The notes under the pieces: model-generated
Databases searched by the model: none
What the model was told of the DNA's origin: nothing
Seen by the model: only the letters and a program-made list of their open reading frames with translations
Part shown: positions 1,422 to 19,603 of the stretch, piece after piece
Position numbering within the stretch: position 1 is the stretch's first letter
Layout of the letters: each line of letters begins with the position of its first letter
Assembly: GCF_900188335.1 (NCBI RefSeq)
Contig: NZ_FZOY01000002.1
Coordinates: 496,001-560,000 of the forward strand
Direction: 5' to 3'
DNA from: Tropicimonas sediminicola
GTDB lineage: Bacteria > Pseudomonadota > Alphaproteobacteria > Rhodobacterales > Rhodobacteraceae
Length of the DNA: 64,000 bases
Program-made: the position numbers and the translations under genes

Positions 1422-1469
1422 TCGCGAAACAGGAAACGCGCGTTGCCTCGAAGCACGCAGGAGTGAGCC

Positions 1470-3247: not shown

Positions 3248-3265
3248 ACTGAGCAACGGAGAACC

Positions 3266-3709: not shown

Positions 3710-3737
3710 GCCAGGCGTCAGACAAGGAATACAAGTG

Positions 3738-4476: not shown

Positions 4477-7038
4477 TCAGGACAGGTGGCGCGTGAACTG
4501 CGGGCGCTCCGCCTGCCAGAGATGGGGGAAGGCGCGCATCGCGGCCCGCGCGCCGGCCTCGTCACCGGATTTCGCGAGAGTTTCGATGTCGCCGAGCGCC
4601 CGGTGCAGGGACTTGGCTTGGAACGTCCCGCAGGAGCCGGCCATCTTGTGCGCCCGGGCGACCAGGTCGCCAAGCGGCTCCGCATCCAGGGTTTCGGACC
4701 CGAAAAGCGTCGCGCCCGCGTCGAGTTCCTGCACGAAGCTGCCGACCAGGCCGGTCACCTTTTCCGCCCCCAGCGTCTCGACCAGATCACGCAAGGCATC
4801 ATCCGCAGGGCCATTCGATGTGCCGGCATGCTCCGCCGGTGCGGGGGTGGCGGAGCCGACCCGCTTCTCGATCAGGCTGAGCTGGTGCCGGAGACTGTCG
4901 CGCTCGATCGGCTTGGTAACAAGTCCGACCATGCCTGCGGAACGGAATGTCTCCCGGTCGGCAGGCATTGCATGGGCGGTGACGGCCAGGATCGGCGTGC
5001 CGCGGTTGGGACCGTCGCCCTCGCGGATCGCGCGGGTTGCGGCGATCCCGTCCATCACCGGCATGCTGATGTCCATCAGGATCACGTCGAACGCCTCCGC
5101 CCCCGCGACCGCAACGCCTTCCCGGCCGTCGAAGGCCTCGGTCACGGCATGGCCGTCCTGGGTCAGCATCCCGTGCAGCACGCTCCGGTTGATCTCGTTG
5201 TCCTCGACGATGAGGATCGAGAGCTTGTCCTCGAACGCCTTCTTGCGCGGATCGGACGCGGCCGTCTTGGGGCCGCTTGCGATCTCCAGCGGGATCCGCA
5301 CCCAGAACAGGCTCCCTTCGCCCTCAATGCTCTCGACGCCAATCTCGCCATCCATCGCCCGGGCCAGGCGCCGCGCGATCCCGAGGCCGAGCCCGGTGCC
5401 GCCGGTCTTTCGGCCGTAGGACGTGTCGATGGTCTCGAAATCGTCGAAGATCCGAGCCTGGTCGGCGTCGGAAATGCCGATCCCGTCGTCGATGACCCGG
5501 AATTCCGCCACTCGACGCCGGCCGGTTCCGTTCACCTCGGCCTCGAGCCGGACCTCGCCGGCATGGGTGAACTTCAGCGCGTTGTTGACGAGGTTCAGCA
5601 GCACCTGGCGCAACCGCACCGGATCTCCGCGCACCTCGCCCGGCTTGGGCGACGTCCAGACCTCGACAAGCTTGTTGCCATGGGCAGCGGCCACGCTGCT
5701 CTGACCGGCGACGACATCGCTCAGAAGCGCGGCCAGATCGAAGACCTCCGAGTTGATCTCCATCCGCCCAGCTTCGAACTTCGAGATATCGAGCACGTCG
5801 TTGACGTGGTGCAGCAGCAAGTGGCCGGAGGCGTCCATGTTGTCGAGATAGGTCGACTGCCGCTGTGTCAGCTCGGTTTCGCGCAGCAGCGACATGGTCC
5901 CGAGCAGACCGTTCAGCGGTGTGCGCATCTCGTGGCTCATCACCGCAAGGAAGTCGGCCTTGGCCTTTTCGCCCGCCAGCGCCTTGTCGCGCGCCGCGAC
6001 CAGCTCTTCCTGCGCCCGCTTGTCCTCGGTGATGTCGCGCAGGAAGGAGACGAAGCTGATCCCCTCCTCGCTTTCGATCATGTCGATCGACAACTCCACC
6101 GGGAACACCTCGCCCGACTTGCGCTTGCCCTCCAGTTCGACCCGCCCCGCGCCGACAACGCGCTGCTTGCCGGTTTCGAGGAAGCGCTTCATGCCGGCGG
6201 TATGCGCCGCCGCGTAGTGGTCGGGGATGATCAGGTCCACCAGCGACTGGCCCACCGCCTCTTTCTCGGTATAGCCGAAAACACGCTCCGCCGCGCCGTT
6301 GAACTGCTTGACGACCCCCTTGCCGTCGGACTCGATCACCGCGTCGAGCGAGGTGCCGATGATCGCCCGCAGACGCGCGGCAAGCAGCCTCTGCTCGCGC
6401 CCGCTCTGCACCGCGGTCTTGTTCATCCGCCACAGGCCGAATGACAGCAGGACCAGCAGCGACACCAGCGCGGCAAGCGTGATGGCGAGCTTCAACAGCG
6501 TGGCCGAGACCGCATCACGGCGCTCGTCGGAGGTGATGGCAAACAGCTCCAGCGCGCGCAGCGAGAGATTGCGAACGTCTTCCCGAAGCTCGGCGACCGT
6601 GGAATCCAGCGCAGGAAGCTCCGAGGCAAGCACGTCGAGCGGGCCGTCGACCAGCGGGATCGTGTCCTCCAGGAAGCGCTGAACCGGGACGAGGCTCAGG
6701 GCAAACGAATAGTCATCCTTCAGATCCTGGTAGGCCGTGCCATTCTGCAGCGTCGCGACCCGGCTATAGAACACGTCGAAGCGCCGCTTCATCTGAAGCA
6801 GCGCGGTCTCGGAGCCGCCCCGCGCTTCGCGCAGCGACATCTGGAAAAGGAGGAACTCCACCTCGAGCTGCGACAGCGTCCACTGCACGTTGTCGGAATG
6901 CGCAACGTCCAGCGATCTCAGCTTCCGCGACACCTCGCTCGACAGCATGATGATCGCGCCGGCAAAGGCAAGTGCGGCAACGACGACCAGGACCGGCCGA
7001 ATCCCGCGAAGAATGGAAGTCCTGATCCCGCCTTGCAT
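4477..7038 (-). CDS. TorS-like hybrid sensor histidine kinase (PAS, HisKA, HATPase, REC, HPt)
   Basis: An 853-residue inner-membrane phosphorelay kinase. Transmembrane segments near residues 15-33 and 183-203 enclose a helical periplasmic sensor domain of about 150 residues. A PAS domain follows (about 221-338), then the HisKA site [11 protein letters not shown] with His369, a HATPase domain with [13 protein letters not shown], a receiver with the phospho-acceptor in [10 protein letters not shown] (Asp656), and a C-terminal HPt domain with [11 protein letters not shown] (His797). An HPt output implies transfer to a separate response regulator. The only one in the window is the LuxR-type protein at 9434, so pairing is inferred. 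It lies 38 bases downstream of, and in operon with, the periplasmic protein at 7077. It is unlikely to belong to the convergent nap operon. Confidence 0.93.
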
Positions 7039-7076
7039 GGTGCCTCTTCAGTCGTGTGTTATTCGAAACCGGTGGC

Positions 7077-7601
7077 TCAGTCCGGCTGAACCTCGATCCG
7101 GTCAAGTTGCCATATGCTGCGTGAATAGATGCTTTCGGCCTGGTACTCGGGGTTGGAATCGTAGGGATAGATGATCCACAGCGGCCCCTTGTCGCGCACC
7201 GACATCGGCTCGCCGTTATTGGCATAGGCGACGATCGGACCGTCCGGGATGGCGTCGGCCACCGGGATCGTGACCGAGTAGTCGTTGATCGCGGTGGCCG
7301 AAAGTGTTCCGCTGCCGACCCCGAGCAGGTCGAGCAGCGTATCCAGACCGACGCCGGTGAACTCCTGTTCCCCTTCGGTCCAGATCGTGGTGGTGGCAAT
7401 GGTGCGGCTCTCCAGGGCGCTGAGCATGTCCAGGTCGAACCGGGCCACGTCGTCGCCGTTTGTTGTCGATATCGCACCGCTCACAGTCAGGACGACCTCA
7501 CCTTCCGGTTGCGGCAGGTCCGCCGCACCGGCTGCGCCGGAAATTGACACGGTGAATGCGATGGCTGCGAGGCTTGTCGAGAGTCCGTGGAGCGTGCGCA
7601 T
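7077..7601 (-). CDS. Secreted oxidoreductase molybdopterin-binding-fold protein
   Basis: A 174-residue protein with a Sec signal (hydrophobic core ending SGAAGAADLP). The mature part resembles the small stand-alone relatives of the SUOX/YedY molybdopterin-binding fold, with blocks such as FTGVGLDTLLDLLG, AINDYSVTIPVAD and KGPLWIIYPYD. I see no conserved Mo-ligand cysteine, so it probably binds a ligand or acts as an accessory sensor rather than an enzyme. The ATG at 7601 was chosen over the longer frame because AGGATCAGGAC directly precedes it and the signal peptide starts there. It precedes the hybrid kinase gene, suggesting it is the periplasmic input partner. Confidence 0.8.
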   Translation of the reverse strand: MRTLHGLSTSLAAIAFTVSISGAAGAADLPQPEGEVVLTVSGAISTTNGDDVARFDLDMLSALESRTIATTTIWTEGEQEFTGVGLDTLLDLLGVGSGTLSATAINDYSVTIPVADAIPDGPIVAYANNGEPMSVRDKGPLWIIYPYDSNPEYQAESIYSRSIWQLDRIEVQPD

Positions 7602-7677
7602 GTCCTGATCCTGTTCGCTGCTTGCGTAAGTTGTCCCTAGCACGGATCGGCACGGGGGCCAGTTGGTCAAGCGTATA

Positions 7678-7703
7678 GCGACCTATCCGATCGGATAGGT
7701 CGC
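7678..7703. promoter_or_regulatory. Perfect 26-bp palindrome, EPS dyad copy 1
   Basis: The core CCTATCC-GATC-GGATAGG at 7682-7699 is extended to a perfect 26-bp palindrome by GCGA and TCGC flanks. It lies 76 bases upstream of the sensor-operon start (7601, minus) and downstream of the fused glycosyltransferase stop (7744, minus). The same 7-4-7 dyad recurs in front of the other EPS transcription units. It could instead be an RNA hairpin at the end of the glycosyltransferase transcript, but the recurrence at promoters favours a protein-binding site. Confidence 0.7.
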
Positions 7704-7743
7704 CATGCCGCAGGCCCCGTGAGGCCCTTCGGCAACGTTCGTG

Positions 7744-9159
7744 TCAGTAGGCGCCACGCCCGGAGAAGACCGCGCGGAAGGTCATCAGGATCAAGGCGAT
7801 GTCGAGCAGGATCGTGCGGGACGCGGCATAGGCGAGGTCCATGTCGAACATCTTTTCCGCCCCGATGTCGGCGCGTCCGGAGACCTGCCACAGGCCGGTC
7901 AGGCCGGGCCGGACAGCCAGGCGGCCGTGGGCGCGGGTCGGATAGGCGGCGACTTCCTGCGGCAGCGAGGGGCGCGGCCCCACGACCGACATCTCGCCCT
8001 TCAGGATGTTGAGGATCTGCGGCAGCTCGTCGATCGAGTAGCGGCGCATTATCCGGCCGACGCGGGTAACGCGGGGGTCATGGCGGGACTTGAAGAAGAT
8101 GCCTTCGCGGTCGGACTGCGCCAGCAGCGCGGCCCGGCGGGCCTCGGCGTCGACATGCATCGAGCGGAACTTCAGCATCTCGAAGGCGCGGCCGTCGCGG
8201 CCGACCCGGGTCTGGCGGAAGAAGACGGGGCCACGGCTGTCGAGCTTGATGGCGAGAGCCACCAGCGCGAAAAGCGGCGACAGAGCAAGGATCGCTGCCC
8301 CGGTCAGCGCAACGTCCAGCGCCCGCTTGGCCACGGCGTCGCGGTTGGCGGAAGCGACGGCGTGGGCGGCCGCACGCGCCATGAAGGTCACGTTGCCGAC
8401 GAGGTAGCGGCCCGCCATGCGGCGCGGTTCCATCGCCAGGCGCCAGGCCCATTCCATGCGCGCGTTGCGCACCGCGGCGGGCGCACGGCGCACCCGGCCG
8501 GCGAGGAAGTCGAACAGCGCGCCAACCCCGAGGCTCAGTTTCGGCGCGAGGCGGTCCGCGTTCTGCTCCAGCCAGATATCCTGGCGCGGCACGCCCATCG
8601 CGACGATCAGGATGTCGGCGCCGGAGCGGTTGATCGCATCGATCGCGGCCTCGTCGTCGGCCGCGCCATCGAACCCGTCGCGCGTGCCGGCGATGCGGAG
8701 GCCGGGGATGTCGAGGCAGAGCTTATCGGCCGCCTGGTCCGCCACGCCGGGAGCCGCGCCGAACAGGAACACGGAGAGCCCGCGCCGCGCCGCCTCGCGC
8801 AGCAGGCGGGGGGTGAAATCGGTGCCGTTCAGGTTGGCGCTGAGCTGCTGGCCGGTCATCTTCGCCGCCAGATCGATGCCGATCCCGTCGGGCAGGACCG
8901 CGTCCGCCGTGGCCATCGCCTGGGCATAGGCCGCATCGCGCGCCATCACGTTCGCGCAATGCGCGTTGAGAAAGGCGACCCGATGGCGCTGACCGTCGAG
9001 CAGGTGGTCGATCGCCTGGTCCGCATCCGCATCGACGATCGCGAGATCGAAGAGCGGGATACGCTTCATGGGCTTGCGCGCCGGAGCGGCGGCAACGTCC
9101 TGGGTGTCGGCGTGGAACGGGGCGGTGGCGGTGGCGGTGATGGCAGCGTCGAAGGGCAT
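7744..9159 (-). CDS. Fused WecG/TagA-type glycosyltransferase and WbaP/ExoY-type sugar transferase
   Basis: A 471-residue fusion of two enzymes of polysaccharide repeat-unit assembly. About residues 33-258 are a WecG/TagA/CpsF glycosyltransferase (LNAHCANVMARD, LPDGIGIDL, VAMGVPRQDIWLEQN). About residues 277-471 are an initiating bacterial sugar transferase (polyprenyl-phosphate glycosyl-1-phosphate transferase) with an N-terminal membrane hairpin, then FRQTRVGRDG, LKFRSM, RRYSIDELPQ, GPRP and RPGLTGLWQVSGR. The start at 9159 has GGAG seven bases upstream; an in-frame ATG at 9195 lacks a ribosome-binding site. It is divergent from the regulator at 9434. It probably loads the first sugar on undecaprenyl phosphate and adds the second. 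Confidence 0.93.
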   Translation of the reverse strand: MPFDAAITATATAPFHADTQDVAAAPARKPMKRIPLFDLAIVDADADQAIDHLLDGQRHRVAFLNAHCANVMARDAAYAQAMATADAVLPDGIGIDLAAKMTGQQLSANLNGTDFTPRLLREAARRGLSVFLFGAAPGVADQAADKLCLDIPGLRIAGTRDGFDGAADDEAAIDAINRSGADILIVAMGVPRQDIWLEQNADRLAPKLSLGVGALFDFLAGRVRRAPAAVRNARMEWAWRLAMEPRRMAGRYLVGNVTFMARAAAHAVASANRDAVAKRALDVALTGAAILALSPLFALVALAIKLDSRGPVFFRQTRVGRDGRAFEMLKFRSMHVDAEARRAALLAQSDREGIFFKSRHDPRVTRVGRIMRRYSIDELPQILNILKGEMSVVGPRPSLPQEVAAYPTRAHGRLAVRPGLTGLWQVSGRADIGAEKMFDMDLAYAASRTILLDIALILMTFRAVFSGRGAY

Positions 9160-9306
9160 CGGTGTCTCCGGTCGGGGGTATCGGTTGGTCACCATGGATG
9201 CCGCCCCGGCCGCCGTCTCTCAACGTGGCGGAGGGAGAGGTTGCGGGGCCTATCGGCTGGCCGGCTGTCCGCCCGGAGCCCGCGATGGGCCGATCGCGCC
9301 CCGCTC

Positions 9307-9324
9307 CCTCGCCTTTCGGATAGA
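9307..9324. promoter_or_regulatory. Degenerate EPS dyad, copy 2
   Basis: CCTCGCC-TTTC-GGATAGA matches the CCTATCC-N4-GGATAGG dyad at 5 of 7 and 6 of 7 half-site positions with the same 4-base spacer. It is in the 274-base divergent region between the fused transferase (start 9159, minus) and the response regulator (start 9434, plus), so it could serve both promoters. On its own it would be unremarkable; the position supports it. Confidence 0.45.
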
Positions 9325-9433
9325 GAAAGTACCCGGATGGTAACGACTTCGCCGGCGGGGCTGGTCCATTATTCGTGGGACATTTGAAAGGCCCGCGATA
9401 TGATCGGCGCGATCTTCCGCTTCAGAGGACAAG

Positions 9434-10048
9434 ATGAAGATACTTATCGCCGACGATCACGACCTGCTCCGCGACACCCTCGTGGCTTTCCTCGAAAGCG
9501 AGAGCGACATCACGACCGCCAGCGCCTCGACCTTTGACGAGGCGGCGGCCCGGATCGCGGACGACGACAGTTTCGACCTGGTCCTTCTCGATTACAACAT
9601 GCCGGGAATGAACGGCCTGTCCGGGCTGGAGCGGGCGATCACCACCGGACGCGGGCAACGCGTGGCGCTGATCTCGGGCGTGGCGGCGCGGGACGTGGCG
9701 GAAAAGGCGCTGGCGCTCGGCGCCGCCGGCTTCCTGCCCAAGACGCTCTCGGCCAAGTCCCTGGTCAACGCGGTTCGGTTCATGGCGATGGGCGAGCAAT
9801 ACGCGCCGCTCGACTTCATGACAGCCGAGGAGGAGGCGCCGAAGCACGAGCTGGCCGAGAAACTCTCCCGGCGCGAGTTGCAGGTGCTCGAAGGGCTGAC
9901 CCAGGGCAAGTCCAACAAGGAGATCGCGCGCGATCTGGATGTGCAGGAGCCGACCGTGAAGCTCCACGTCAAGACGCTCTATCGCAAGATCGGCGTGGCG
10001 AACCGCACCCAGGCCGCCATGGTGGCCAAGGAATCCGGCCTCTTCTGA
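9434..10048 (+). CDS. LuxR/NarL-family response regulator
   Basis: A 204-residue two-domain regulator. The N-terminal receiver has the acidic pocket DDHD, phospho-acceptor Asp53 in LLDYNMPGMNG, and the switch lysine in FLPKTLS. The C-terminal LuxR helix-turn-helix reads LSRRELQVLEGLTQGKSNKE followed by IARDLDVQEPTVKLHVKTLY. It lies inside the EPS locus between the divergent initiating transferase and the chain-length gene. It is the natural candidate to bind the CCTATCC-N4-GGATAGG dyads. No kinase is adjacent; the HPt-bearing kinase at 4477 is the best partner in the window. Confidence 0.94.
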   Translation: MKILIADDHDLLRDTLVAFLESESDITTASASTFDEAAARIADDDSFDLVLLDYNMPGMNGLSGLERAITTGRGQRVALISGVAARDVAEKALALGAAGFLPKTLSAKSLVNAVRFMAMGEQYAPLDFMTAEEEAPKHELAEKLSRRELQVLEGLTQGKSNKEIARDLDVQEPTVKLHVKTLYRKIGVANRTQAAMVAKESGLF

Positions 10049-10056
10049 GCGCCGCA

Positions 10057-10074
10057 CCCATCCGAACGGATAGG
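10057..10074. promoter_or_regulatory. EPS dyad, copy 3
   Basis: CCCATCC-GAAC-GGATAGG matches the palindrome at 7682-7699 with one base different in the left half-site. It lies in the 115-base gap between the regulator stop (10048) and the Wzz-like gene (10164), the expected promoter zone of the chain-length/polymerase operon. Confidence 0.65.
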
Positions 10075-10091
10075 TCCGACTCCGGATGCGT

Positions 10092-10114
10092 CGCCGCCTA
10101 TCCTTCGGCGGCGC
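10092..10114. promoter_or_regulatory. Extra CCTATCC half-site within a small hairpin
   Basis: A perfect left half-site CCTATCC lies at 10097-10103, 22 bases after the full dyad. The surrounding bases also form a hairpin, CGCCGCC with loop TATCCTTC and arm GGCGGCG. It may be a second regulator contact or a weak transcription stop behind the regulator gene. Confidence 0.35.
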
Positions 10115-10163
10115 AGCATCATTCTGCGCAGGCATGTAGACAAGGCGGCAAAGGAGAGCCGCC

Positions 10164-11663
10164 ATGACCGACTGCACCACCGCCCTGCCCGATGCCCCCG
10201 CCGCCAAGCCGTCGCGGAACTTCTGGATCTTCCGGATGCCGCTGCGCGAGCTGAGCGCTGCGCGGATCTTTCGGGGCGGGCGGCTCAACGATGCAGGCCG
10301 GCTGCCTCGGTACATCTTCATCTTCCTGCTCGGCGCAGCGGTGATCTGGGCCCCCATCGTGGGTTACCTGTCGACAGCCCCGCTGCGCTTCACCTCCACC
10401 ATGTCGCTGATCCTGCCCGGCTCCGGCGCGTCGGCTTCCGTCAACCTCGACCGGATCGGGCAGGCCTCCTCCTTTGCCAACTCGCCCTTCGCCAGCAGCT
10501 CGGTCAGCCCGACGGAGACCTACAAGCGCCTGCTCGCCGCCGACCGCATCCTAGCGGCCGCTGCCGGCAAGGTTGGCATGGCGCGACAGGATTTCGGCAT
10601 GCCGCGGGTCAACCTCGTGGACCAGACGAGCCTGATACATGTCGAGGTCACCGGCAATTCGCCCGAGGACTCGCAGGCGCGCGGCGATGCGCTGCTCGAA
10701 GCCTTCTTCTCCGAGATCGACGCCCTGCGCAGCGACGAGCTGACCGTGCGCGAGGACGGCGGACGCGGCGCACTCGAGGAATACCGCAGCTCGGTTTCCG
10801 CCACCCGCGAGGAAATCAGCCGCCTGCAGCGCGAGACCGGGCTGATCAACGCCAGCCAGTACGAAGACCTCGTGCGCGACACCGACGCCCTGCGCGGCCG
10901 CATTGCCGAGGTCTCGTCGGAACTGAGCGAACGCACGCAGGCGACCGAAGCCCTGCGCGCCACGCTGGGGATCGACCCTCGCGCCGCGGCGGCGACGCTC
11001 AAGCTGCATGCCGACAGCGAGTTCAACACGGTCATCCAGGAGATGAGCCAGCACGCGGCCAGCCTGGCCGAGGCCGAGGGCCGCTACGGTCCCAGCCACC
11101 CTGCCCTCAAGGCCGCGCGCGAAAGCCACGACGCCACCCGGATGCGGGCGCTCGACAAGGCGGTCGAGATCACCGGCCTGTCGGTGACCGAGGTCGCCCG
11201 CCTCGACATGTCGCCCGTCGGTGGCCGCGCCGAACTGCTGGGCCGGCTGGTCGAATACGACAGCGAACGCTCCGGCCAGGCCGCCGAACTGGCGGCGCTG
11301 CAGCAGCAACTGGTCGAGGCAGAGGCCCGGGTGATCGACCTGATCGAGCCCGCCGCGCGCCTCGAGGACCTGCAGCGCGACTTCTCCGTGGCCGAGGCCG
11401 TCTTCGCCTCCACCGCGGCGCGGTCCAAGACCTCCAAGGTCGATCTCTTCGCCTCCTATCCGCTGGTGCAGGTGCTCGAGAACCCCTCGCTGCCCACCGA
11501 CCCGACCTCGCCCAAGCGGGTGCTCGCCGTTGCGGCCGGCATCGCGGCGACCATGATGCTGCTCTTCGGCCTGATCCTCGGCTGGGTCCGCGCCCGCCTG
11601 ATCTCGCGGCTGCTGGCCGACGGCAAGGCCACCGCGCCAGCGGCGGCGCAGGCCGCGGCATGA
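10164..11663 (+). CDS. Wzz/GumC-like polysaccharide chain-length protein
   Basis: A 499-residue inner-membrane polysaccharide co-polymerase. One transmembrane helix at about residues 50-70 and another near 453-475 bracket a long periplasmic region rich in coiled coil. It ends soon after the second helix and has no Walker motif or tyrosine-rich tail, so it lacks the fused tyrosine autokinase of ExoP/Wzc proteins. The motif PTDPTSPKRVL before the second helix corresponds to the usual Pro-rich Wzz motif. It overlaps the polymerase gene by four bases (ATGA) and sits behind the dyad at 10057. Confidence 0.88.
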   Translation: MTDCTTALPDAPAAKPSRNFWIFRMPLRELSAARIFRGGRLNDAGRLPRYIFIFLLGAAVIWAPIVGYLSTAPLRFTSTMSLILPGSGASASVNLDRIGQASSFANSPFASSSVSPTETYKRLLAADRILAAAAGKVGMARQDFGMPRVNLVDQTSLIHVEVTGNSPEDSQARGDALLEAFFSEIDALRSDELTVREDGGRGALEEYRSSVSATREEISRLQRETGLINASQYEDLVRDTDALRGRIAEVSSELSERTQATEALRATLGIDPRAAAATLKLHADSEFNTVIQEMSQHAASLAEAEGRYGPSHPALKAARESHDATRMRALDKAVEITGLSVTEVARLDMSPVGGRAELLGRLVEYDSERSGQAAELAALQQQLVEAEARVIDLIEPAARLEDLQRDFSVAEAVFASTAARSKTSKVDLFASYPLVQVLENPSLPTDPTSPKRVLAVAAGIAATMMLLFGLILGWVRARLISRLLADGKATAPAAAQAAA

Positions 11664-12982
11664 GCGACGCCCCCGCCAAGCTGCGCCCGGCCAACCCGGC
11701 CGAGGCGATGGTTCTCAAGACCCTCGCCTGGACCTGGCCCTTCTACTTCATCGGCGCGCTTTACGTGGTCGGGCCGGTGCTGGCCTGGACGCTTGGCGGC
11801 CTCGCGCTCCTCTCGCTATACCTCGGCCCGGCCATCCGGCCGGACCTGCGGGCGACCGGAACGATCCCGCCGGTGGTCTGGGCCTGGATTCTCGGCATGC
11901 TGGTCATGCTGGTCGCGCTCTGGGTCGGCCATGTCGACTGGGGGCTCGGCCTCAAGAAGACCATCAAGTCGAGCATCGGCTGGGCCAAGGGCTGGGCATT
12001 GCTCGCGCTGTTCCCGCTGATCGGAGCGGTGCTGCCGATCCGCCGCGAGATCCTCGCGCGCGGCCAGTGCATCGTCGGCCTGTGGACGCTGGCGCTGCTG
12101 CCCATCCTCGCCGTGGCCCCCTACATCGGCCTGCCGGAGAAGATCTTCACCTCGCCCTTCAAGGCCGTCGGCGGCCCGGGCCCGGAATATTTCAGCGTCT
12201 ACTTCTTCACCTACGACCCCTCGAGCTGGACGCCGCGCTGGCAGTTCTTCGCCCCCTGGTCGCCCTTTGCCGCGCTGCTCGGCGTGGTGATGGTGCTGTT
12301 CGCCCTGGAGGAAAAGGACCGCCGCTGGCGGGCCGCCGGCATCGCTGCCGGCATCGCGATGATCCTGATGTCGAAATCCCGCATGGGCCTTGTCGGCCTC
12401 GTGGCGTGCACCATCGGGCCGCGGATGCTGCCGCTGATCCTGCGCGGCTGGGCCTGGCAGATCGTTGCGCTGATCACCGCCTCGCTGGCGGTCATCGGGC
12501 CGGCGCTCCTTCAGGGGTTCAAGGATGGCGTCGCCGCCTTCAAGGGCGCGCGGGCCGACAGCACCCGGGTTCGCGAAACACTTCAACGTATCGCCGGAGA
12601 GCGTTGGCAGAACGAGGCTTTCTGGTTCGGCCACGGCACCGTGCAACCCGGTCCGCACCTCGTGGAATACATGCCGATCGGCAGCCACCATACCTGGTGG
12701 GGCCTGCTGTTCGTGAAGGGGCTCGTGGGCTTTCTGGCGATGCTCGTGCCGCTGCTCTGGCAGACCTGCCTCGCCCTGCTCGACGCCGCCCGCAATCCGC
12801 GCGGACGCCTGCCGCTCGGCATCGTCATGACGCTGGTCCTGCTGTCGATGGGAGAGAACATCGAGATCGAGGCCTACATGATGTGGCCGGGCCTGATGGT
12901 TCTCGGCCTGCACGCGCGGGAGCTGGCCGATGAGCAGATGGAGCGCATGAAGCAACGCACTCTTCAGGCCCGGGCCGCCTGA
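11660..12982 (+). CDS. Wzy-like polysaccharide polymerase / O-antigen ligase-family membrane protein
   Basis: A 440-residue polytopic inner-membrane protein with about ten hydrophobic segments and a larger soluble loop (about residues 285-340) that contains GHGTVQPGPHL and GSHHTWW. This organisation is typical of the O-antigen polymerase/ligase superfamily, which joins lipid-linked repeat units in the periplasm. Sequence conservation in the family is low, so the assignment rests on topology and on the neighbouring Wzz-like gene. Its 3' end overlaps the convergent sulfotransferase gene by 19 bases. Confidence 0.8.
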   Translation: MSDAPAKLRPANPAEAMVLKTLAWTWPFYFIGALYVVGPVLAWTLGGLALLSLYLGPAIRPDLRATGTIPPVVWAWILGMLVMLVALWVGHVDWGLGLKKTIKSSIGWAKGWALLALFPLIGAVLPIRREILARGQCIVGLWTLALLPILAVAPYIGLPEKIFTSPFKAVGGPGPEYFSVYFFTYDPSSWTPRWQFFAPWSPFAALLGVVMVLFALEEKDRRWRAAGIAAGIAMILMSKSRMGLVGLVACTIGPRMLPLILRGWAWQIVALITASLAVIGPALLQGFKDGVAAFKGARADSTRVRETLQRIAGERWQNEAFWFGHGTVQPGPHLVEYMPIGSHHTWWGLLFVKGLVGFLAMLVPLLWQTCLALLDAARNPRGRLPLGIVMTLVLLSMGENIEIEAYMMWPGLMVLGLHARELADEQMERMKQRTLQARAA

Positions 12983-13920
12983 TCCGGGCGCCAGTGGCTC
13001 AGGTCACGCCCGAACCGCTCCTCCAGCCACGCGATGTCCTCCTCCAGCTCGGCAGCCAGCCGACGCGCGACGTGTGGGTCGAGCGTCGGGCGTTTTCCCG
13101 CATTGAGACGATCGAGCGCTGCGCGGATCCGGCGGCGCCCGCCCTTGGGAACCAGGCGCGACACCGCCTTTACGCCCGCGCCCGGGTGGGACAGCATCCG
13201 CCGAAGCGCAGGGCTCCGCGCCGTGGTCGCGACGGCTGAGGCCTGGTTGGTCCTCGCAGCCAGCTCATCGGCCGGAAAGGGCGGGATCCCCAGGAAATCG
13301 GACAATGTCGAGAGGAAGCCTGCGGGATCGGCCTCCATGTCATCATGGAACAGCACGCAGAGCCGCTCGCGCGGAATGACCGCCTCGAAACGGCGCAGGG
13401 TCTCGGCGTATCGGCTGCCGCTGGCGTAGCCACAAAAGGGGGACCAGCCGGCCGCGAGGCGGGACGGCTCGTCGGCGAGCGCCTGTCCGAAGTCCGACGT
13501 CGTCTCCAGCCCGTCGCGCACATGGTGGGCGAACTGGGAGAACGCGCGCGCCACAGGATCGCGGAGAACCAGCAGCACCTTGATCTCGGGCGACCATTCG
13601 GCAATCCGCCCCGCGGCCTCCGGCACCAGGGCATAAACGGGCGATGCCTCGCCGCGCAATTTCCCATGGGCGTCACGAAAGAGGGCCTGGTAGGCGGAAG
13701 GATCGGTCACGATGGTCGAGAAATAGTCCGGGTCGAAGGGTCCGGAAGCGGGCCGTGGATCGCTCCCGGCAAAGGCGAAAAAGCCCGGCTCCTTCGAGCC
13801 GGGCATGAAGGTGGATGGATGGCGCGACAGGGCGGCCCAGAGTGCAGTCGTTCCTGCTTTCGGCCAGCCGGCTACCACGAAGTCGGGGCCGGTCTTACCT
13901 GCCGCGCCTCCGCCGGTCAT
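12964..13920 (-). CDS. Sulfotransferase of the EPS locus
   Basis: A 318-residue PAPS-dependent sulfotransferase-family protein. The 5'-phosphosulfate loop is seen as VVAGWPKAGTTALWAALSRH near the N-terminus, and the 3'-phosphate-binding block as VLLVLRDPVARAFSQFAHH. It is the last gene of the minus-strand wzx/glycosyltransferase operon; its start overlaps the preceding glycosyltransferase stop by ATGA. It probably sulfates a sugar of the exopolysaccharide or a precursor. The acceptor cannot be told from sequence. Confidence 0.88.
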   Translation of the reverse strand: MTGGGAAGKTGPDFVVAGWPKAGTTALWAALSRHPSTFMPGSKEPGFFAFAGSDPRPASGPFDPDYFSTIVTDPSAYQALFRDAHGKLRGEASPVYALVPEAAGRIAEWSPEIKVLLVLRDPVARAFSQFAHHVRDGLETTSDFGQALADEPSRLAAGWSPFCGYASGSRYAETLRRFEAVIPRERLCVLFHDDMEADPAGFLSTLSDFLGIPPFPADELAARTNQASAVATTARSPALRRMLSHPGAGVKAVSRLVPKGGRRRIRAALDRLNAGKRPTLDPHVARRLAAELEEDIAWLEERFGRDLSHWRPDQAARA

Positions 13921-14936
13921 GCTGCGTCTCGCGAGTGGTGGTGACCGGCGATCTTGTTCAGAAGCTTGGCCCAGAGTTCGGGCGTGGTCCGTTGGACATC
14001 GGCCGCGGAGATGCGGCCCCAGGCGATGCCGATATGCAGCGCCGGACCGGTCTTGCAGGCGGTTTCGATCGCCTCCCGCCAGGCTTCGACGGTGCCACCC
14101 GCGACCGCGCGGGCGCCGCCCTCGATGTGATCCTGCAGCCCGTCGACCTGCGCCACCAGCAGCGCGCGACCCGCGGCCCGCGCCTCGAGCGCAACCAGCC
14201 CGTAGGCTTCCCAGCGGGAGGGCATCGCGACCATGTCGAGCTTCGCCATCTCCGCGGCGGGGGTGCTGCTGTAGCCGTGGAAGGAGATCCGGCTGTCGCC
14301 GCTGGCAAGCTCCTCCAGCGCGGCCCGGTCCGCCCCCTCTCCGATCAGCCGCAGGCGCAGGTCGGGATCGGCGGTCTCGCGGAAGGCGCGGATCAGGGTG
14401 TCGAACCCCTTTTGCTCGTCAAAGCGGCCGATGGCGCCGATGATGCGCGGCGCGCCATAGCGCCCAGGCAGGGCAAGAAACGGCGCGAGATCGACGCAGG
14501 ACGGGATCACGGCAAGGGCCTCTTCGCGGACCAGCCCGCGCTCGGCCAGCCAGCGCCCCTGCCCCTCGCTCACCGCGATCACGCGGTCGAAAAGCGAATA
14601 GGCCGTGCGCAGCAGAGCGAAGAACCGGGTGCGGTGGCGCACCTTCAGGCCGGTGAAAGCGCCGGTGTAGCTGTGCTCGACGTGGATCAATGTGCGGTCG
14701 GCATAGCGGGCCCGCAGACCGACCAGCATGGGCAGGTTGCGCCAGCTCACCGACAGGTGGGAAACGATGATCTCCTCGTCGAGTTGCGGTGCCGCGAGGC
14801 GCCCGCGGGCCACGACCTGCACCCGGTGGCTGCCAAGCCGTGCCATCTCGGGGTTGGTCTCGATGAAGTCCAGCATCCGCATCACGCCGCCGGCGGTGGT
14901 ATCGTCAACAAGGTGAACAATGGTCTTGGGGCTCAT
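13917..14936 (-). CDS. GT4-family glycosyltransferase
   Basis: A 339-residue GT-B-fold glycosyltransferase. The C-terminal half has the glycosyltransferase group 1 pattern: IIGAIGRFDEQKGFDTLIRA, then LIGEGADRAALEEL, ISFHGYSS, and the EAYGLVALEARAAG donor-binding region with the ExxxxxxxE acid pair. The N-terminal acceptor domain begins KTIVHLVDDTTAGGVMR. The start at 14936 has a near-perfect AAGGAGGA ribosome-binding site. It lies in the wzx-GT2-GT2-GT4-sulfotransferase operon and likely adds one sugar to the lipid-linked repeat unit. Confidence 0.92.
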   Translation of the reverse strand: MSPKTIVHLVDDTTAGGVMRMLDFIETNPEMARLGSHRVQVVARGRLAAPQLDEEIIVSHLSVSWRNLPMLVGLRARYADRTLIHVEHSYTGAFTGLKVRHRTRFFALLRTAYSLFDRVIAVSEGQGRWLAERGLVREEALAVIPSCVDLAPFLALPGRYGAPRIIGAIGRFDEQKGFDTLIRAFRETADPDLRLRLIGEGADRAALEELASGDSRISFHGYSSTPAAEMAKLDMVAMPSRWEAYGLVALEARAAGRALLVAQVDGLQDHIEGGARAVAGGTVEAWREAIETACKTGPALHIGIAWGRISAADVQRTTPELWAKLLNKIAGHHHSRDAA

Positions 14937-14950
14937 GATCTATTCCTCCT

Positions 14951-15949
14951 TCAAAGGGTTTGGTCGGAGGTCGCGGTGCGACCCGAAACAGCGTTGCGCA
15001 GGGACTGGAACCGGTCGGCCCCCAGAGCGCCGAGCGCCAGCGCGGCGGCGAATGTCGTTGCGCTCTTGGCGGGTTCTTCCCAGAGCGGGCGGCGCGAGCT
15101 CTGGAAGCTGCGCCGGGCGAGCGTCGCGGCCGCGGCGGCATCGCCGTCGCTGATCGCGCGGCGGCAGAGGTAGCGCAGCTGGTAGGCGCGCGCGGCCGGG
15201 GTGTGGCGCTCGAAGAAGCCGGGCGCCAGCGGGGTCAGCTTTTCTACCAGCCGCTCCCAGGCGCGGAACTGGGCCTCGACGCCGGCGGAAAGGCCGCCGG
15301 AGTTGATCCGGTAGAGCGTCAGGTCGCCCCGGATCCCCTCGAAGGCCCAGTCGGTGGTCAGCGCCATGCGCAGCCAGCATTCGATGTCCTCGGACTGGCG
15401 GAAGCTCTCGTCGAACCACCAGTCGCGGATGAACTCGCCGGCCGGGCGCCAGGCGATCGCGTCGAGCGCGGCGCGGCGGATCACCGGGGCGGAGCCATTG
15501 CCGACCGGGTTGCGGCGAAAGATGTGGGCGGCGTCAATGTTGGTCAGGCGCGGCGTCTGGCTGAGACCGAGCGGGAGGCCAGCCTCGTCGATCATCGCCG
15601 AGGCGCTGTAGCTCACACCGACCTCCGGGCGCGCGTCGAGGTGCCGGACATGGCGCTCCAGCTTGGTCGGATGCCACAGGTCGTCGCTGTCGCAGAAGCC
15701 CACCAGTTCGCCCCGGGCGGCCGCGATGCCGCTGTTTCGCGCCCCGGCAAGACCACGGTTCGCCTGTTCGACGATCCGCAGGCGGTCGCAGTCGAAGCTC
15801 TGGGCGATCTCTAGCGTCTCGTCGGTCGAGCCGTCGTCCACCAGAACGATCTCGTAGTCGGCGAAGGTCTGGGCGCGCAGCGACTGCAGGGTCGCGGGCA
15901 GCGTTGCGGCGACGTTGTAGGCGGGGACGACGATGGAGGCCTTGGGCAT
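14951..15949 (-). CDS. GT2-family glycosyltransferase
   Basis: A 332-residue GT-A-fold inverting glycosyltransferase. It starts PKASIVVPAYNVAATLPATL, followed by VLVDDGSTDETLEIA and the metal-binding site in GFCDSDDLWHPTKLERH. The ATG at 15949 has AGGA upstream and begins directly at the catalytic domain. An in-frame ATG at 15976 would overlap the preceding gene and is less likely. A C-terminal cysteine-poor helical region follows. It is the third gene of the minus-strand EPS operon. Confidence 0.92.
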   Translation of the reverse strand: MPKASIVVPAYNVAATLPATLQSLRAQTFADYEIVLVDDGSTDETLEIAQSFDCDRLRIVEQANRGLAGARNSGIAAARGELVGFCDSDDLWHPTKLERHVRHLDARPEVGVSYSASAMIDEAGLPLGLSQTPRLTNIDAAHIFRRNPVGNGSAPVIRRAALDAIAWRPAGEFIRDWWFDESFRQSEDIECWLRMALTTDWAFEGIRGDLTLYRINSGGLSAGVEAQFRAWERLVEKLTPLAPGFFERHTPAARAYQLRYLCRRAISDGDAAAAATLARRSFQSSRRPLWEEPAKSATTFAAALALGALGADRFQSLRNAVSGRTATSDQTL

Positions 15950-15965
15950 CGGAAGGTCCTTTCGG

Positions 15966-16889
15966 TCAGCGGGCAAAGAGGGTGCGGGAGAGCTGCCGCG
16001 GCAGCACCGGGGAGAGCGCGGCGGCGAGCGCGGTCAGGGCGCCGCGGCGGGGGTCGGAGAAGAAACCGGCGGGGCTGGTGCAGATGCCGGAGAGCGCAAG
16101 GCGCAGCGGCAGCACCCGGCCGGATTGCAGGCGCAGCGCCCGGCGGGCGAGATAGCGCAGGTGCACCGCCTCGTGCCGCGCCGCAGGCACCGCGCCGAAG
16201 CGGCGGGCGGTGGCCAGGGCGGCGGCGCGGCCCTGGCGCATCCGCTCGAGATCGGCAGAGAGGCCGGTGGGGCTGGCCCGATACCAGACCAGCAGATCCT
16301 GAACGCCGCCAAGGCGATAGCCCTGGCCGACCAGCCGGATCAGCCATTCCAGGTCCTCGTTATGGACCATGTCCTCGTCGAACCCGCCGGTGGCCGCAAA
16401 GACGTCGCGACGGACCGTGAGGTTGGACATCGTGCAGACCGGGTTCTCGCCGAGCAGGTCGTCGATCCCCAGCGGGGACGCGGGCACGGTCGAGAAGACC
16501 CGGGCCGCGTCCGGCGCGGCATCGAAAAAGGCGATGCGGGCGAAGCAGGCGTCGTGGTCGCTGGCAACGCAGGCGGCATGGGTGCGGGCGAGCTTCTCGG
16601 TCGACCAGATGTCGTCGGCATCGAGAAAGGCGATCCAGTGGCCGCGGGCCAGTTCCAGCGCGGCATGGTTGCGCGCGGCGCTCGGTCCCTTGCCCGGGTT
16701 GGCGATGCGGCGGATGCGCGGGTCGGTCTCGGCGATGCGGTCGATCAGAGCCGCGGTCCCGTCGGTCGAGCCATCGTCGACGCAGATCGCCTCCCAGTCG
16801 GTCAGGGTCTGGGCCGACAGGCTGGCCAGGGTCTCCGGCAGGGTATCGGCCGCGTTGTAGCAGGGGATGACAACGGTGAAGAGCGGCAT
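15966..16889 (-). CDS. GT2-family glycosyltransferase
   Basis: A 307-residue GT-A-fold glycosyltransferase related to its downstream neighbour. It has FTVVIPCYNAADTLPETLAS, CVDDGSTDGTAALIDRI, and the metal site in AFLDADDIWSTEKLART. The family signature EDLEWLIRLVGQGYRLG follows in the middle. The start at 16889 follows the flippase stop by three bases. The two adjacent GT2 genes have similar N-terminal halves and may derive from a duplication. Confidence 0.92.
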   Translation of the reverse strand: MPLFTVVIPCYNAADTLPETLASLSAQTLTDWEAICVDDGSTDGTAALIDRIAETDPRIRRIANPGKGPSAARNHAALELARGHWIAFLDADDIWSTEKLARTHAACVASDHDACFARIAFFDAAPDAARVFSTVPASPLGIDDLLGENPVCTMSNLTVRRDVFAATGGFDEDMVHNEDLEWLIRLVGQGYRLGGVQDLLVWYRASPTGLSADLERMRQGRAAALATARRFGAVPAARHEAVHLRYLARRALRLQSGRVLPLRLALSGICTSPAGFFSDPRRGALTALAAALSPVLPRQLSRTLFAR

Positions 16890-16892
16890 CGA

Positions 16893-18137
16893 TCAGGCCT
16901 CCGACAGGGCAGGTTTGCGGGCGCCGACGAACGGCAGCGCGGCGGCGACGAGCTGGGTGAAGGTGGCAACGAGGAGGTAGCCCCAGGCCAGCGCCATCAG
17001 CCCGTGCGGCGCCATCAGGACGGTGTTGACGATCAGCGCGAGGGTCATGACCAGGGTCGCGGCAAACTCGATCTCGGGGCGGTTGTCGGCCCGGAGCCAC
17101 TGCGCCGTCGCCGCCCAGATCACGCCGGGGATCGCCGCGAGGCAGAGGATCGAGACAACCCCGCTCAGGTCCTGCCAGTCCGGGCCGAACAGGAGCGGCA
17201 CGTAGAGCGGCGCGGCGAGCGACTGGAGCACCACCATCGGGACGATGACCGAGAGCGCCATGATCAGCGCACGCTGGAGCGAGGAGGCACGATCGTCGCT
17301 GGCACAAAGGTGGGGGAAGAGCACGTTGGCAAAGGCCATCGCGAAGGAGTTGGCAAGCCCGAGGCCGGCGTTGAAGGCCATGAAGTAGAGCCCCAGGATC
17401 TCGGCCCCCATCAGCACGCCGACCAGCAGCTTGTCGGCCTGAAGACGCAGCGCCTTGACGACCTCGACCCCGAGCACGGCCCAGCCGTAGGTGACGAAGG
17501 GGCGCAGCGGCGCGAGCGGCTGGGTGGTGTCGGGCGACCAGGGGCGCAGGCGGCGCACCGCGATCAGCCAGATCGGCGCCGACAGCAGGCGCGGCAGGAC
17601 GAGGGCCAGCGGCCCCGGCCAGACGATCGCCAGAGCGACACAGGCGACATTCGCGCCGACGATCTGCCCGGCGGAAATGGCGGCGGTCTGCTGCAGCTTG
17701 CCTTCGCGCATCGCGAGGGCGACCTGCACCAGGCCGGCCGGCATGAAGAGGTACTCGGCTGCGAGGATCACGATCAGCATCGGGATCACCGCGCTGCCGC
17801 TGACGGCGAAGAACACCGCGGCGACGGCGCATTGCAGGGCGAAAAGGCCAAGGCACCATGCCCAGAAGATGCGCTGCGCGGTCCGGCAGGTGCTCTCCAG
17901 AGTGGCAGCGGGCGCGGCGATGATACGCTGGACGGCGCCGTTCTCGGTCAGGGACTTGAGAATGTCGGAGGTGGCGAGCGCGGCAGCGGCAAGACCGATC
18001 GCCTCGGCCTCCATGGTGCGGGCGACGGCGACCACGACGAACAGGCGCGAGGCTTTCGCGGCGACCTCGGACACGGAATACGCCAGCAGGTCGCGGGCGA
18101 AGGGGCCGAGCCGGGCGATATGGTCTTGCAAAGTCAT
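16893..18137 (-). CDS. Wzx-like polysaccharide flippase
   Basis: A 414-residue polytopic membrane protein of the MOP/oligosaccharidyl-lipid flippase superfamily, with about twelve hydrophobic segments. It would move the finished lipid-linked repeat unit across the inner membrane. The ATG at 18137 begins MTLQDHIARLG, with GAGGACAGG about a dozen bases upstream; a GTG at 18170 in frame is possible. It is the first gene of the minus-strand EPS operon. Its promoter must lie in the region shared with the divergent export gene, where two dyads occur. Confidence 0.88.
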   Translation of the reverse strand: MTLQDHIARLGPFARDLLAYSVSEVAAKASRLFVVVAVARTMEAEAIGLAAAALATSDILKSLTENGAVQRIIAAPAATLESTCRTAQRIFWAWCLGLFALQCAVAAVFFAVSGSAVIPMLIVILAAEYLFMPAGLVQVALAMREGKLQQTAAISAGQIVGANVACVALAIVWPGPLALVLPRLLSAPIWLIAVRRLRPWSPDTTQPLAPLRPFVTYGWAVLGVEVVKALRLQADKLLVGVLMGAEILGLYFMAFNAGLGLANSFAMAFANVLFPHLCASDDRASSLQRALIMALSVIVPMVVLQSLAAPLYVPLLFGPDWQDLSGVVSILCLAAIPGVIWAATAQWLRADNRPEIEFAATLVMTLALIVNTVLMAPHGLMALAWGYLLVATFTQLVAAALPFVGARKPALSEA

Positions 18138-18258
18138 GCGGTTTGAAACCTGTCCTCGATCTGCCGCCACGTTGACGACCGGTGAGGACTGTCTAAACCG
18201 TGGCGGGTCGCGATGCGCGGACGCCGACGGACACGTCGATGTCCAGCCCGGACAGGCT

Positions 18259-18276
18259 CCTATCCCTTCGGATAGG
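18259..18276. promoter_or_regulatory. EPS dyad, copy 4
   Basis: CCTATCC-CTTC-GGATAGG has both 7-base half-sites identical to the palindrome at 7682-7699, with only the 4-base centre different. It sits between the divergent flippase operon (start 18137, minus) and the export lipoprotein gene (start 18353, plus), so one site could control both. Confidence 0.7.
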
Positions 18277-18294
18277 CCGGACCCTGCGGATAGA
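18277..18294. promoter_or_regulatory. Adjacent degenerate EPS dyad, copy 5
   Basis: The 18 bases abutting copy 4 read CCGGACC-CTGC-GGATAGA. The right half-site matches at 6 of 7 and the left at 4 of 7, in the same phase and length. This looks like a weaker tandem site for cooperative binding. Confidence 0.4.
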
Positions 18295-18352
18295 CTTGGC
18301 CCGCCGCAGGGACTATCGTGCCCACAAGGACAGAGCAGAAGACGAAAAAAAC

Positions 18353-19603
18353 GTGAGACAGGCAGCCGGTATCATCCTTGCGGTTCTCGGAACGGTCGCG
18401 CTGAACGGCTGTGGTCCGCAGGGCAAGGCGGACAATCTGGAAATCGTCGATCGGGCCGCTGCCGACGCGGCCTACCAGGCGCAGTACCGCCTGCCCGTGC
18501 CGCGCAGCCAGGCAGCGGACATCCTCGTCGCCAAGCAGATGAACGCGGATCGCTGCCGCCCCTGGGCGGGCGGCGACGGCTCCAAGGCCGCGAGCCCCCT
18601 GCCCGCCGAGCTTCGCCGCGAGAGCCTGTCCGATGGCGATCTCGTCGAGGTGCATGTCGAGGGTGACCAGGCGGTGCTGGGCGAGCAGGCCATCTTCTCC
18701 GGCGACTACATCATCTCCCGCGAAGGCACGATCAAGCTGCCGTTCATCGGCGCCTTCCGTGCCGACGGGCGCACGCCGGAATCTCTGGCCGCCGAGATTG
18801 CCTCGGCCCTGGAGCGGGGCGAGTTCTACAACGAGGCGCCGCGGGTGTCGGTGCTGCTCTCGGATCTCGGCCCGGTGCGGGTCACCGTGGCCGGCGCCGT
18901 CTTCGAGCCGAGCCCGATGGACCTCGGCAAGCCCGAGGGCACCCTGACGGACGAGCGGCGGATCAACGCCCGCGGAGCGTCCACCGATGCCCGCAACCTG
19001 ACCGTTGCCCTGCGCCGGGCCGGCGGGGTGCGCCCGGACGCCGACCTTTCTGCGGTGGAGCTGCGCCGTGGCGGACGCAGCTATCGCTTCGACCTGCGCC
19101 CGGTGATCGAGGGCCGCGCCTTCCAGGACGTTATGCTGGTGAGCGGCGACGAGGTCATCGTGCCGAGCCGTCTCTGCTTCCAGGACGAACTGATGGTGCC
19201 GAGCCCGATCAGCCCGCCGGGCATCAGCCTGTTCCTGTCGAACCTCATCCAGCCCACCCAGGGCAACGCACCGGCCGCCGTCGGCCGCGAGGCGCGCTCG
19301 GTGCCCTACGGCACCCGGATGATGCAGGGCATCGTCGGCACCAACTGCGTCGGCGGCGTGCGCGCGACGAATGCCAGCCGCTCCGCGGCGCTGTTCTCCC
19401 GCAACCCGCTGACCGATGTCTCCATCGTGGTCGAACGCGACGTGGAGGACATGCGCGTGCGCCAGGACCGGGACGATTACGACCCGTTCCTGCTGCCGGG
19501 CGACGCCATCGCCTGCTACGACAGCGGCGTGACCAACGTGGCCGATGCGGCCCGGATTCTCGGCATCGTCGGCGGCGCCGCGCTCCTGGCAGGCGCCAAC
19601 TGA
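18353..19603 (+). CDS. Wza/ExoF-like polysaccharide export lipoprotein
   Basis: A 416-residue outer-membrane polysaccharide export protein. From the GTG at 18353 the product begins with a classic lipoprotein signal ending in the lipobox LNGC. This start is preferred over a longer in-frame ATG at 18200, which would place the dyad operator inside the gene and hide the signal. The export domain has GDLVEVHVEGDQ, YIISREGTIKLPFIGAFRADG and LAAEIASALERGEFY, then a SLBB-like segment (VRVTVAGAVFEPSPMDLG and LRRAGGVRPDADLSAVELRR). It is divergent from the flippase operon and completes the Wzy-dependent route. Confidence 0.9.
   Translation: MRQAAGIILAVLGTVALNGCGPQGKADNLEIVDRAAADAAYQAQYRLPVPRSQAADILVAKQMNADRCRPWAGGDGSKAASPLPAELRRESLSDGDLVEVHVEGDQAVLGEQAIFSGDYIISREGTIKLPFIGAFRADGRTPESLAAEIASALERGEFYNEAPRVSVLLSDLGPVRVTVAGAVFEPSPMDLGKPEGTLTDERRINARGASTDARNLTVALRRAGGVRPDADLSAVELRRGGRSYRFDLRPVIEGRAFQDVMLVSGDEVIVPSRLCFQDELMVPSPISPPGISLFLSNLIQPTQGNAPAAVGREARSVPYGTRMMQGIVGTNCVGGVRATNASRSAALFSRNPLTDVSIVVERDVEDMRVRQDRDDYDPFLLPGDAIACYDSGVTNVADAARILGIVGGAALLAGAN

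Follow-up and report, generated by a model that had tools for sequence, protein, structure and literature searches.

The exopolysaccharide (EPS) locus analyzed here spans positions 4477-19603 of a 64,000-nucleotide stretch of the Tropicimonas sediminicola genome (positions 496,001 to 560,000 of contig NZ_FZOY01000002.1; hereafter the window), and several of its intergenic regions carry copies of the inverted repeat CCTATCC-N4-GGATAGG, hereafter the dyad. The locus brings together genes for a PruR-like periplasmic protein and a hybrid histidine kinase, a response regulator gene of the NarL/FixJ (LuxR) type, hereafter luxR, and genes for an initiating transferase (wecG-type), a chain-length protein (wzz), a polymerase (wzy), a flippase (wzx) and an export lipoprotein (wza), as listed in Table 1. 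Two dyads are perfect (7682-7699 and 18259-18276) and a third has one mismatch (10057-10074), precisely as listed in the initial annotation, which had been made from the sequence alone; reading of the letters also confirms that the first is part of a 26-bp palindrome without any mismatch (7678-7703). When up to three mismatches are tolerated, the window contains six matches against 1.74 expected, a number reached in 0 of 100 shuffles. All six fall within 7678-18294, in agreement with the earlier statement that no comparable pair occurs elsewhere in the window; two of them (8879 and 11455, three mismatches each) are located inside coding sequence and are probably due to chance. To score the sites, a position weight matrix (PWM) was built from 83 sites with at most one mismatch (maximum 30.4), and a cut-off of 14 was applied. 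By this score the degenerate copy at 9307-9324 is weak, yet its distance from luxR is close to the -94 to -125 of other loci, while the sequence at 18277-18294, formerly listed as a further copy, reaches only 1.6 and is not supported as a dyad.

Table 1. Dyads, promoter elements and genes of the EPS locus (positions in the window; distances in bp relative to the luxR start or to the dyad).
Feature	Position	Strand	Basis or remark
Perfect dyad CCTATCC-GATC-GGATAGG, proposed operator of the pruR-like/kinase operon	7682-7699	-	PWM 30.3; 1752 bp before luxR start (-1752)
Degenerate dyad before luxR	9307-9324	+	3 mismatches; PWM 10.6; -127 from luxR start
Dyad with one mismatch, proposed operator of the wzz-wzy operon	10057-10074	+	PWM 25.6; +623 from luxR start (relatives about +612 to +649)
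Perfect dyad, divergent wzx/wza gap	18259-18276		PWM 28.5; +8825 from luxR start
NarL/FixJ-type response regulator (luxR), proposed dyad binder	9434-10048	+	Pfam Response_reg 1.8e-20, GerE 5.4e-21
Downstream half-site of pruR promoter, last base +9	7673-7679	-	+9 peak; letters read
Candidate -10 TAGGGA of pruR promoter (+43 to +48)	7634-7639	-	-10 peak +43
Third half-site CCTATCC of wzz promoter, last base +29	10097-10103	+	Conserved element ending +30/+31
Candidate -10 TAGACA of wzz promoter	10137-10142	+	-10 peak +64/+65
Half-site CCTGTCC (+9) toward wzx	18250-18256	-	C at +9 in wzx promoters
Half-site CGTGTCC (+30) toward wzx	18229-18235	-	+30 peak
Candidate -10 TAGACA toward wzx	18190-18195	-	-10 peak +64
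PruR-like periplasmic protein, pterin-binding family	7077-7601	-	Start moved by reading from 7670 to 7601
Hybrid histidine kinase (PAS, HisKA, HATPase, receiver, Hpt)	4477-7038	-	Domain search; same strand, after pruR
WecG-Bac_transf fusion (initiating transferase)	7744-9195	-	Family search
Wzz/GumC-like chain-length protein	10164-11663	+	Weak: GNVR and TIGR03007 both below cut-off
Putative Wzy-like polymerase/ligase	11660-12982	+	Name from position and membrane character
Wzx-type flippase, first gene of glycosyltransferase operon	16893-18170	-	Family search
Wza-type export lipoprotein	18353-19603	+	Pfam Poly_export; start moved by reading from 18200 to about 18353

In the whole genome (5.17 Mb), four sites have at most one mismatch and three of them belong to the EPS locus, with none for a reversed-pattern control; the motif is hence not scattered, a single such site lying outside the locus. 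At two mismatches or fewer the genome gives 10 sites and the reversed control also 10, so that the six two-mismatch sites, no more frequent than the control, must be regarded as background. In 80 regulator loci (with flanks of at most 10 kb per side, for the best 80 of 456 relatives of the LuxR-type regulator), we counted 33 perfect sites, 83 with at most one mismatch and 130 with at most two, while other spacers (0-3 and 5-11) gave 0 or 1 perfect site and 0 to 2 with at most one mismatch, and 30 permuted half-sites gave no perfect site and, at one mismatch, 0.07 sites on average. The consensus over these relatives is CCTATCC-GWWC-GGATAGG. At a PWM score of at least 14, the same loci contain 151 sites versus five when reversed, a count that is partly circular because the matrix derives from these loci; per locus, the figures are 63 of 80 versus 4 of 80. 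Among 40 related genomes (T. sediminicola included), 17 have sites with at most one mismatch (row totals, 38 sites versus 5 for the control), and 295 genomes of the family hold 47 perfect sites in 34 genomes versus none for the reversed control. The motif is thus conserved in Rhodobacteraceae, and conservation upstream of orthologous EPS genes, which the initial annotation had left to be examined, is found in many genera.

The sites of relatives recur at defined positions with respect to the luxR start, namely in the wzx/wza gap near -7.1 to -6.1 kb, ahead of pruR near -2.6 to -1.6 kb, ahead of luxR itself near -0.1 to -0.2 kb and ahead of wzz near +0.61 to +0.65 kb. In 28 EPS-bearing genomes with listed sites, 60 of the 75 sites occupy these recurring positions around luxR; the window site at +8825 matches the gene order of a Tropicimonas relative (+8799 in L016). 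With gene starts estimated from tblastn, the site centre is found upstream of the gene in each class, at 60-152 bp for pruR (median 82, n=42), at 59-123 bp for wzz (median 82, n=19) and at 58-127 bp for wzx (median 70, n=21). Regarding the proposal of a local operator system, the EPS locus is marked as claimed, but the system reaches further: it takes in the pruR-kinase operon, and there are also sites unlinked to the locus.

Downstream of the dyad, the promoters share further elements, whose positions were compared with 2000 sets of random shifts per promoter class after removal of pairs at least 80 percent alike. A half-site in first-half orientation peaks at +9 after the dyad in 73 pruR promoters, at +10 in 52 luxR and 34 wza promoters and at +30 in 35 wzz and 34 wzx promoters, each of these peaks being reached by 0 of 2000 shifts. 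The half copy noticed earlier at 10097-10103 fits the conserved third element of wzz promoters, which ends at +30/+31 (C at +30 in 32 of 35); wzx promoters have in addition C at +9 in 32 of 34. The -10-like elements peak at +43 (pruR), +42 (luxR), +45 (wza), +65 or +64 (wzz) and +64 (wzx), peaks that were reached by two of 2000 shifts for luxR and by none for the four other classes. The wzz and wzx promoters are about 21 bp, or two helical turns, longer than those of the pruR/luxR/wza type, and the distance from the last half-site to the -10 element is constant (32-35 bp) in both types. Between the dyad centre and the -10-like element downstream of it there are about 50-74 bp. If transcription starts about 12 bp past the first base of a -10 element, the dyad centre would lie near -62 for pruR, luxR and wza and near -84 for wzz and wzx, which would be typical activator positions. 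Phased downstream half-sites and -10-like elements together suggest an activator. On the wza side of the window itself, the expected half-site and -10 element are not clear, despite the class peak at +10.

The regulator encoded at 9434-10048 combines a receiver domain with a GerE helix-turn-helix, that is, the NarL/FixJ (LuxR-type) architecture. No named curated regulator family (NarL, MctR, MadR, FixJ) passed among the best 25 of 86 NCBIfam matches, the best NarL model giving 116 bits versus a cut-off of 250, and the best solved relative by sequence is 1a04 (NarL, 4.4e-25). In the family genomes, at least 31 of the 47 perfect sites have a regulator orthologue no more than 10 kb away, for about 0.1 percent expected by chance, and a close orthologue (E<=1e-74) is present in 22 of the 34 genomes with perfect sites versus 27 of the 261 others (Fisher 9e-12). 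With the Wzy-like protein as EPS marker (present in 25 of 295 genomes of the family and 49 of 390 of the order), all 25 family genomes with the marker were examined: 24 have the regulator, each with at least one site scoring at least 14 in the EPS locus, and the only one without regulator (G077, its Wzy about 52 percent identical) has no site. In four genomes (G014, G242, G261 and G136) the marker and the regulator are found on two separate contigs and away from the contig ends, yet one or two sites are kept in the EPS loci of all four; further glycosyltransferase homologues are found near the G242 regulator (L138). Extended to 41 marker genomes of the order (40 new ones and G077), the survey gives 39 with the regulator, and the same 39 have a site with at most one mismatch genome-wide, while the two exceptions, G077 and G593, have neither; G593 has lost most of its EPS locus, of which a deletion remnant is left. 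Conversely, five stretches (L139-L143) contain the regulator module without EPS genes, and the sites are still there. The motif hence goes with the LuxR-type regulator, as first suggested, even when the regulator and the EPS locus are on separate contigs. In an alignment of L016-L095 with the window, the recognition-helix region is mainly of the EPT(V/I)KLH..TLYRK and EVT(V/I)KLH..TLCRK types, and dyads are commoner near the former (48 of 57 loci versus 14 of 22). The regulator is thus the best-supported, putative binder of the dyads.

The PruR-like protein of the sensor operon matches 7kos (phmmer, 6e-39) as well as 7rkb, 7kp2 and 7kom, and belongs to Pfam Oxidored_molyb, a SUOX-type family; a Trp replaces the Mo-ligating Cys of SUOX enzymes in 55 of 58 homologues, with one Cys and two gaps in the others. 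By sequence it is a homologue of the solved, pterin-binding PruR proteins, with a pterin as predicted ligand. In the kinase, a WX7E motif (WTLSQLEVE, read) follows the first membrane segment; it is present in 47 of 61 kinase homologues. Among the other 14, WX7D takes its place in nine, and at least three sequences are incomplete or have misread starts. With pruR (7601-7077) followed by the kinase gene (7038-4477) on one strand, the two form a PruR-DTB pair by gene order and motif, the kinase having PAS-HisKA-HATPase-receiver-Hpt domains in place of the GGDEF and EAL domains of the PruR-DcpA pair. By our cut-offs, this pair is present in 55 of the 80 regulator loci, and a phosphorelay running from kinase through receiver and Hpt domain to the regulator appears likely. 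In eight loci (L041, L064, L065, L071, L074, L076, L120 and L131), the gene just before the regulator encodes another histidine kinase (about 24-27 percent identical) in place of a PruR-DTB pair, which amounts to a sensor exchange. A kinase of another kind stands beside luxR in L074, L076, G012 and G208 and the EPS sites are kept, so that the sites can accompany the regulator where the PruR-DTB sensor is missing.

We regard it as probable that the dyad is the operator of the regulator and that it serves an activating, autoregulated EPS regulon under the control of the PruR-DTB kinase. In the predicted mechanism, GerE-domain dimers would bind CCTATCC-N4-GGATAGG upstream of the -35 region, and degenerate same-orientation half-sites phased at +9/+10, complemented at wzz and wzx by the one at +30, would join the dyad. 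The bound regulator would activate its own gene and the pruR-kinase operon, so that sensor and regulator would both be under positive autoregulation, and likewise the operons of wzz-wzy, wzx and wza. Given a hybrid phosphorelay kinase of the PruR-DTB kind, reduced pterin bound to PruR would most likely set the phosphorylation of the regulator through it, and the EPS export, polymerisation and transferase genes would constitute one pterin/redox-gated autoregulated regulon. More broadly, a pterin- (redox-) sensing phosphorelay may govern EPS transcription across Rhodobacteraceae, providing the missing output branch of PruR-DTB systems and a rewirable regulator-operator pair, a generalization for and against which we find the balance even. 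EPS bears on attachment and on life with algae in these abundant marine bacteria. The proposal offers, in testable form, a regulator, an operator and target genes for the PruR-DTB branch; moreover, such an operator code would allow the EPS regulon to be read from sequence, and a regulator keeping its sites while its sensor changes would be a natural example of rewiring.

Several observations weigh against this interpretation. Among the 80 regulator loci, 17 have no site scoring at least 14, including those of the 73-percent relatives L020, L048 and L052, and near EPT-type regulators sites are found in 40 of 42 loci with the PruR-DTB pair versus 8 of 15 without it (7 of 12 and 7 of 10, respectively, for the EVT type). 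The control formed by EPS loci without regulator is weak, because G593 is a deletion remnant and the EPS genes of G077 have diverged. In the shift test the remaining sequences are counted as independent, and wzx and wza share their dyads. The initial annotation had the dyad marking every promoter region of the EPS locus, and it does so recurrently for pruR, luxR, wzz and wzx/wza, but not in the direction of the initiating transferase (wecG-type), which is without phased elements (half-site peak reached by 185 of 2000 shifts, -10 peak by 267). Finally, 16 of the 47 perfect sites (L096-L111) have no listed regulator orthologue within 10 kb. Of these, L107 belongs to an EPS locus and L100 to a pruR operon, and around the other 14 no regulator, pruR or EPS gene is found in the stretch examined.

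Regarding L020, L048 and L052, no dyad, EPS gene or PruR was seen in these loci; L020 is a short contig, and L048 is from strain HIMB11, which has a small genome. As to the initiating transferase, its regulation through the luxR-side dyad (9307) was considered and discarded, no signal being found in that direction. In three loci with another kinase (L074, L076 and G012), a lone dyad is located about 120-160 bp before the wecG-type gene, which may be a dyad target in loci elsewhere.

Among the alternatives, the one that survives best keeps the regulator as binder and changes the outcome: it would repress, or act with a sign depending on phosphorylation, or the sensor input would not be a pterin. 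It is a possible reading, although clearly less probable than pterin-controlled activation. Site position upstream of predicted -10 elements is by itself no proof of activation; the input is exchangeable, as the four loci or genomes with an adjacent kinase of another kind indicate, and the Agrobacterium PruR restrains adhesin production, according to a review (PMC13259868). The spacing of the dyad centres from the -10-like elements and the two helical turns separating the promoter types nevertheless suit activation, and the frequency of the PruR-DTB pair beside the regulator argues for pterin input.

It is unlikely that another, unlinked transcription factor binds the dyad and that the luxR gene is merely one of its targets. 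The 16 distant perfect sites would be explained in this way, and so would the genomes G231 and G011, which have perfect sites and no regulator match at E 1e-45. However, the sites accompany the regulator where EPS genes are absent (L139-L143), the marker genomes of the order have both regulator and site or neither, and the form of the dyad suits a GerE-domain dimer of the ComA type. The only other candidate considered in the neighborhood, a LysR gene (19693-20601), has no consistent homologue in other EPS loci and was rejected; one 60-percent homologue is found near the G366 locus (L182).

An RNA hairpin (terminator or attenuator) in place of an operator is very improbable. CCUAUCC and GGAUAGG could pair into a 7-bp stem with a 4-nt loop, one site class lies just past the luxR stop codon, the unlinked perfect copy L110 looks like a terminator with a T run after it, and positions of the stem changed on both sides number 22 versus 9.1 expected for independent sides, 12 of them keeping the pairing. 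Over 193 distinct sites, on the other hand, the change affects a single side at 178 pair positions, one-sided G-U pairs are balanced between the strands (46 and 44), and a TTTT run follows within 10 bases at 1 of 194 sites; as changes are mostly one-sided, G-U pairs strand-symmetric and T runs absent, and with the sites lying upstream of predicted promoters, we reject the hairpin in favor of the operator. Chance palindromes or a dispersed repeat element, for which only the two-mismatch background of the T. sediminicola genome could be invoked, have a negligible probability, being refuted by the spacing and permutation counts in the 80 loci and by the 47 versus 0 perfect sites, and the flanks of the copies share no repeat beyond the phased elements.

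A known counterpart of the proposed operator system is ComA of Bacillus subtilis, which works with another kinase than the one found here. In the accessible part of the study concerned (PMC4797271), ComA is described as activating from an inverted repeat with a 4-nt spacer and a degenerate downstream direct repeat, canonical and non-canonical sites serving type I and type II activation. As far as this account goes, the two response regulators have DNA-binding domains of the same type, and both systems have an inverted repeat with a 4-nt spacer upstream of the promoter and a more degenerate downstream element oriented as the first half. They differ in the half-site (TTGCGG in ComA, CCTATCC here), in the Gram-positive host and in the target genes; moreover, the downstream direct repeat of ComA has a 5-nt spacer, whereas our peaks are at +9/+10 and +30, with secondary peaks that form no clear 5-nt repeat. 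NarL of Escherichia coli, which has the same domain architecture, prefers heptamers with a 2-bp spacer, its C-terminal-domain dimer binding inverted heptamers (PMC4549865, in the part available). Unlike this 7-2-7 arrangement, the dyad has another heptamer and a spacer of 4, at which the 33 perfect sites were counted.

On the sensor side, PruR-DTB systems are widespread in Proteobacteria according to the available sections of the review already cited (PMC13259868), which show a DTB-type protein of Ruegeria pomeroyi as an example and which give, for the DTB branch, no response regulator or DNA site. Like the systems described there, the present locus has a PruR-type gene in an operon with a kinase bearing the WX7E motif; the regulator, the operator and the EPS regulon proposed here are what sets it apart. 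With its PruR homologue, WX7E partner and surface-polysaccharide output, it also resembles PruR-DcpA of Agrobacterium tumefaciens, as presented in the same sections. DcpA, however, works through cyclic di-GMP (c-di-GMP), whereas the partner here is a hybrid kinase, so that the output would be transcriptional. A search of open-licence papers, beyond the reach of which lies the primary PruR paper (PNAS 2024), gave no description of the operator or of the regulator among the matches listed; the only one of these papers with both half-site strings (PMC9426504) has them, in the part available, in primer sequences.

Among the remaining features of the locus, the mechanical wza start at 18200 would give a frame containing the dyad. 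The Wzy-like protein has no Pfam or NCBIfam match. The minus strand carries a sulfotransferase gene and three glycosyltransferase genes, two of the latter named by reading only. The sulfotransferase (12964-13920) is matched by a 64-percent homologue in the corresponding place of L016, the closest relative, and by none in the other loci mapped, which points to a sulfated polymer for this lineage. Ahead of the sensor operon, positions 30-4463 read like a periplasmic nitrate reductase cluster (the end of a molybdopterin subunit, ferredoxin-type and multihaem cytochrome proteins), named from translations only.

Finally, some sites outside the EPS loci can be described individually. The fourth T. 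sediminicola site with at most one mismatch (L001, G000:C14:336089) is located about 400 bp before the mechanical reading frame of an Asp/Arg-rich protein and also near another LuxR-type regulator gene (33 percent). In two genomes (L102 and L106), perfect dyads occupy the same gap after a marR-type gene and are perhaps terminators. In L108 (G262:C1:444078), far from EPS genes, a perfect dyad precedes a GGDEF-type gene and is followed, by reading, by a half-site-like CCTCTCC ending near +10, which makes a link between the regulator and c-di-GMP possible.

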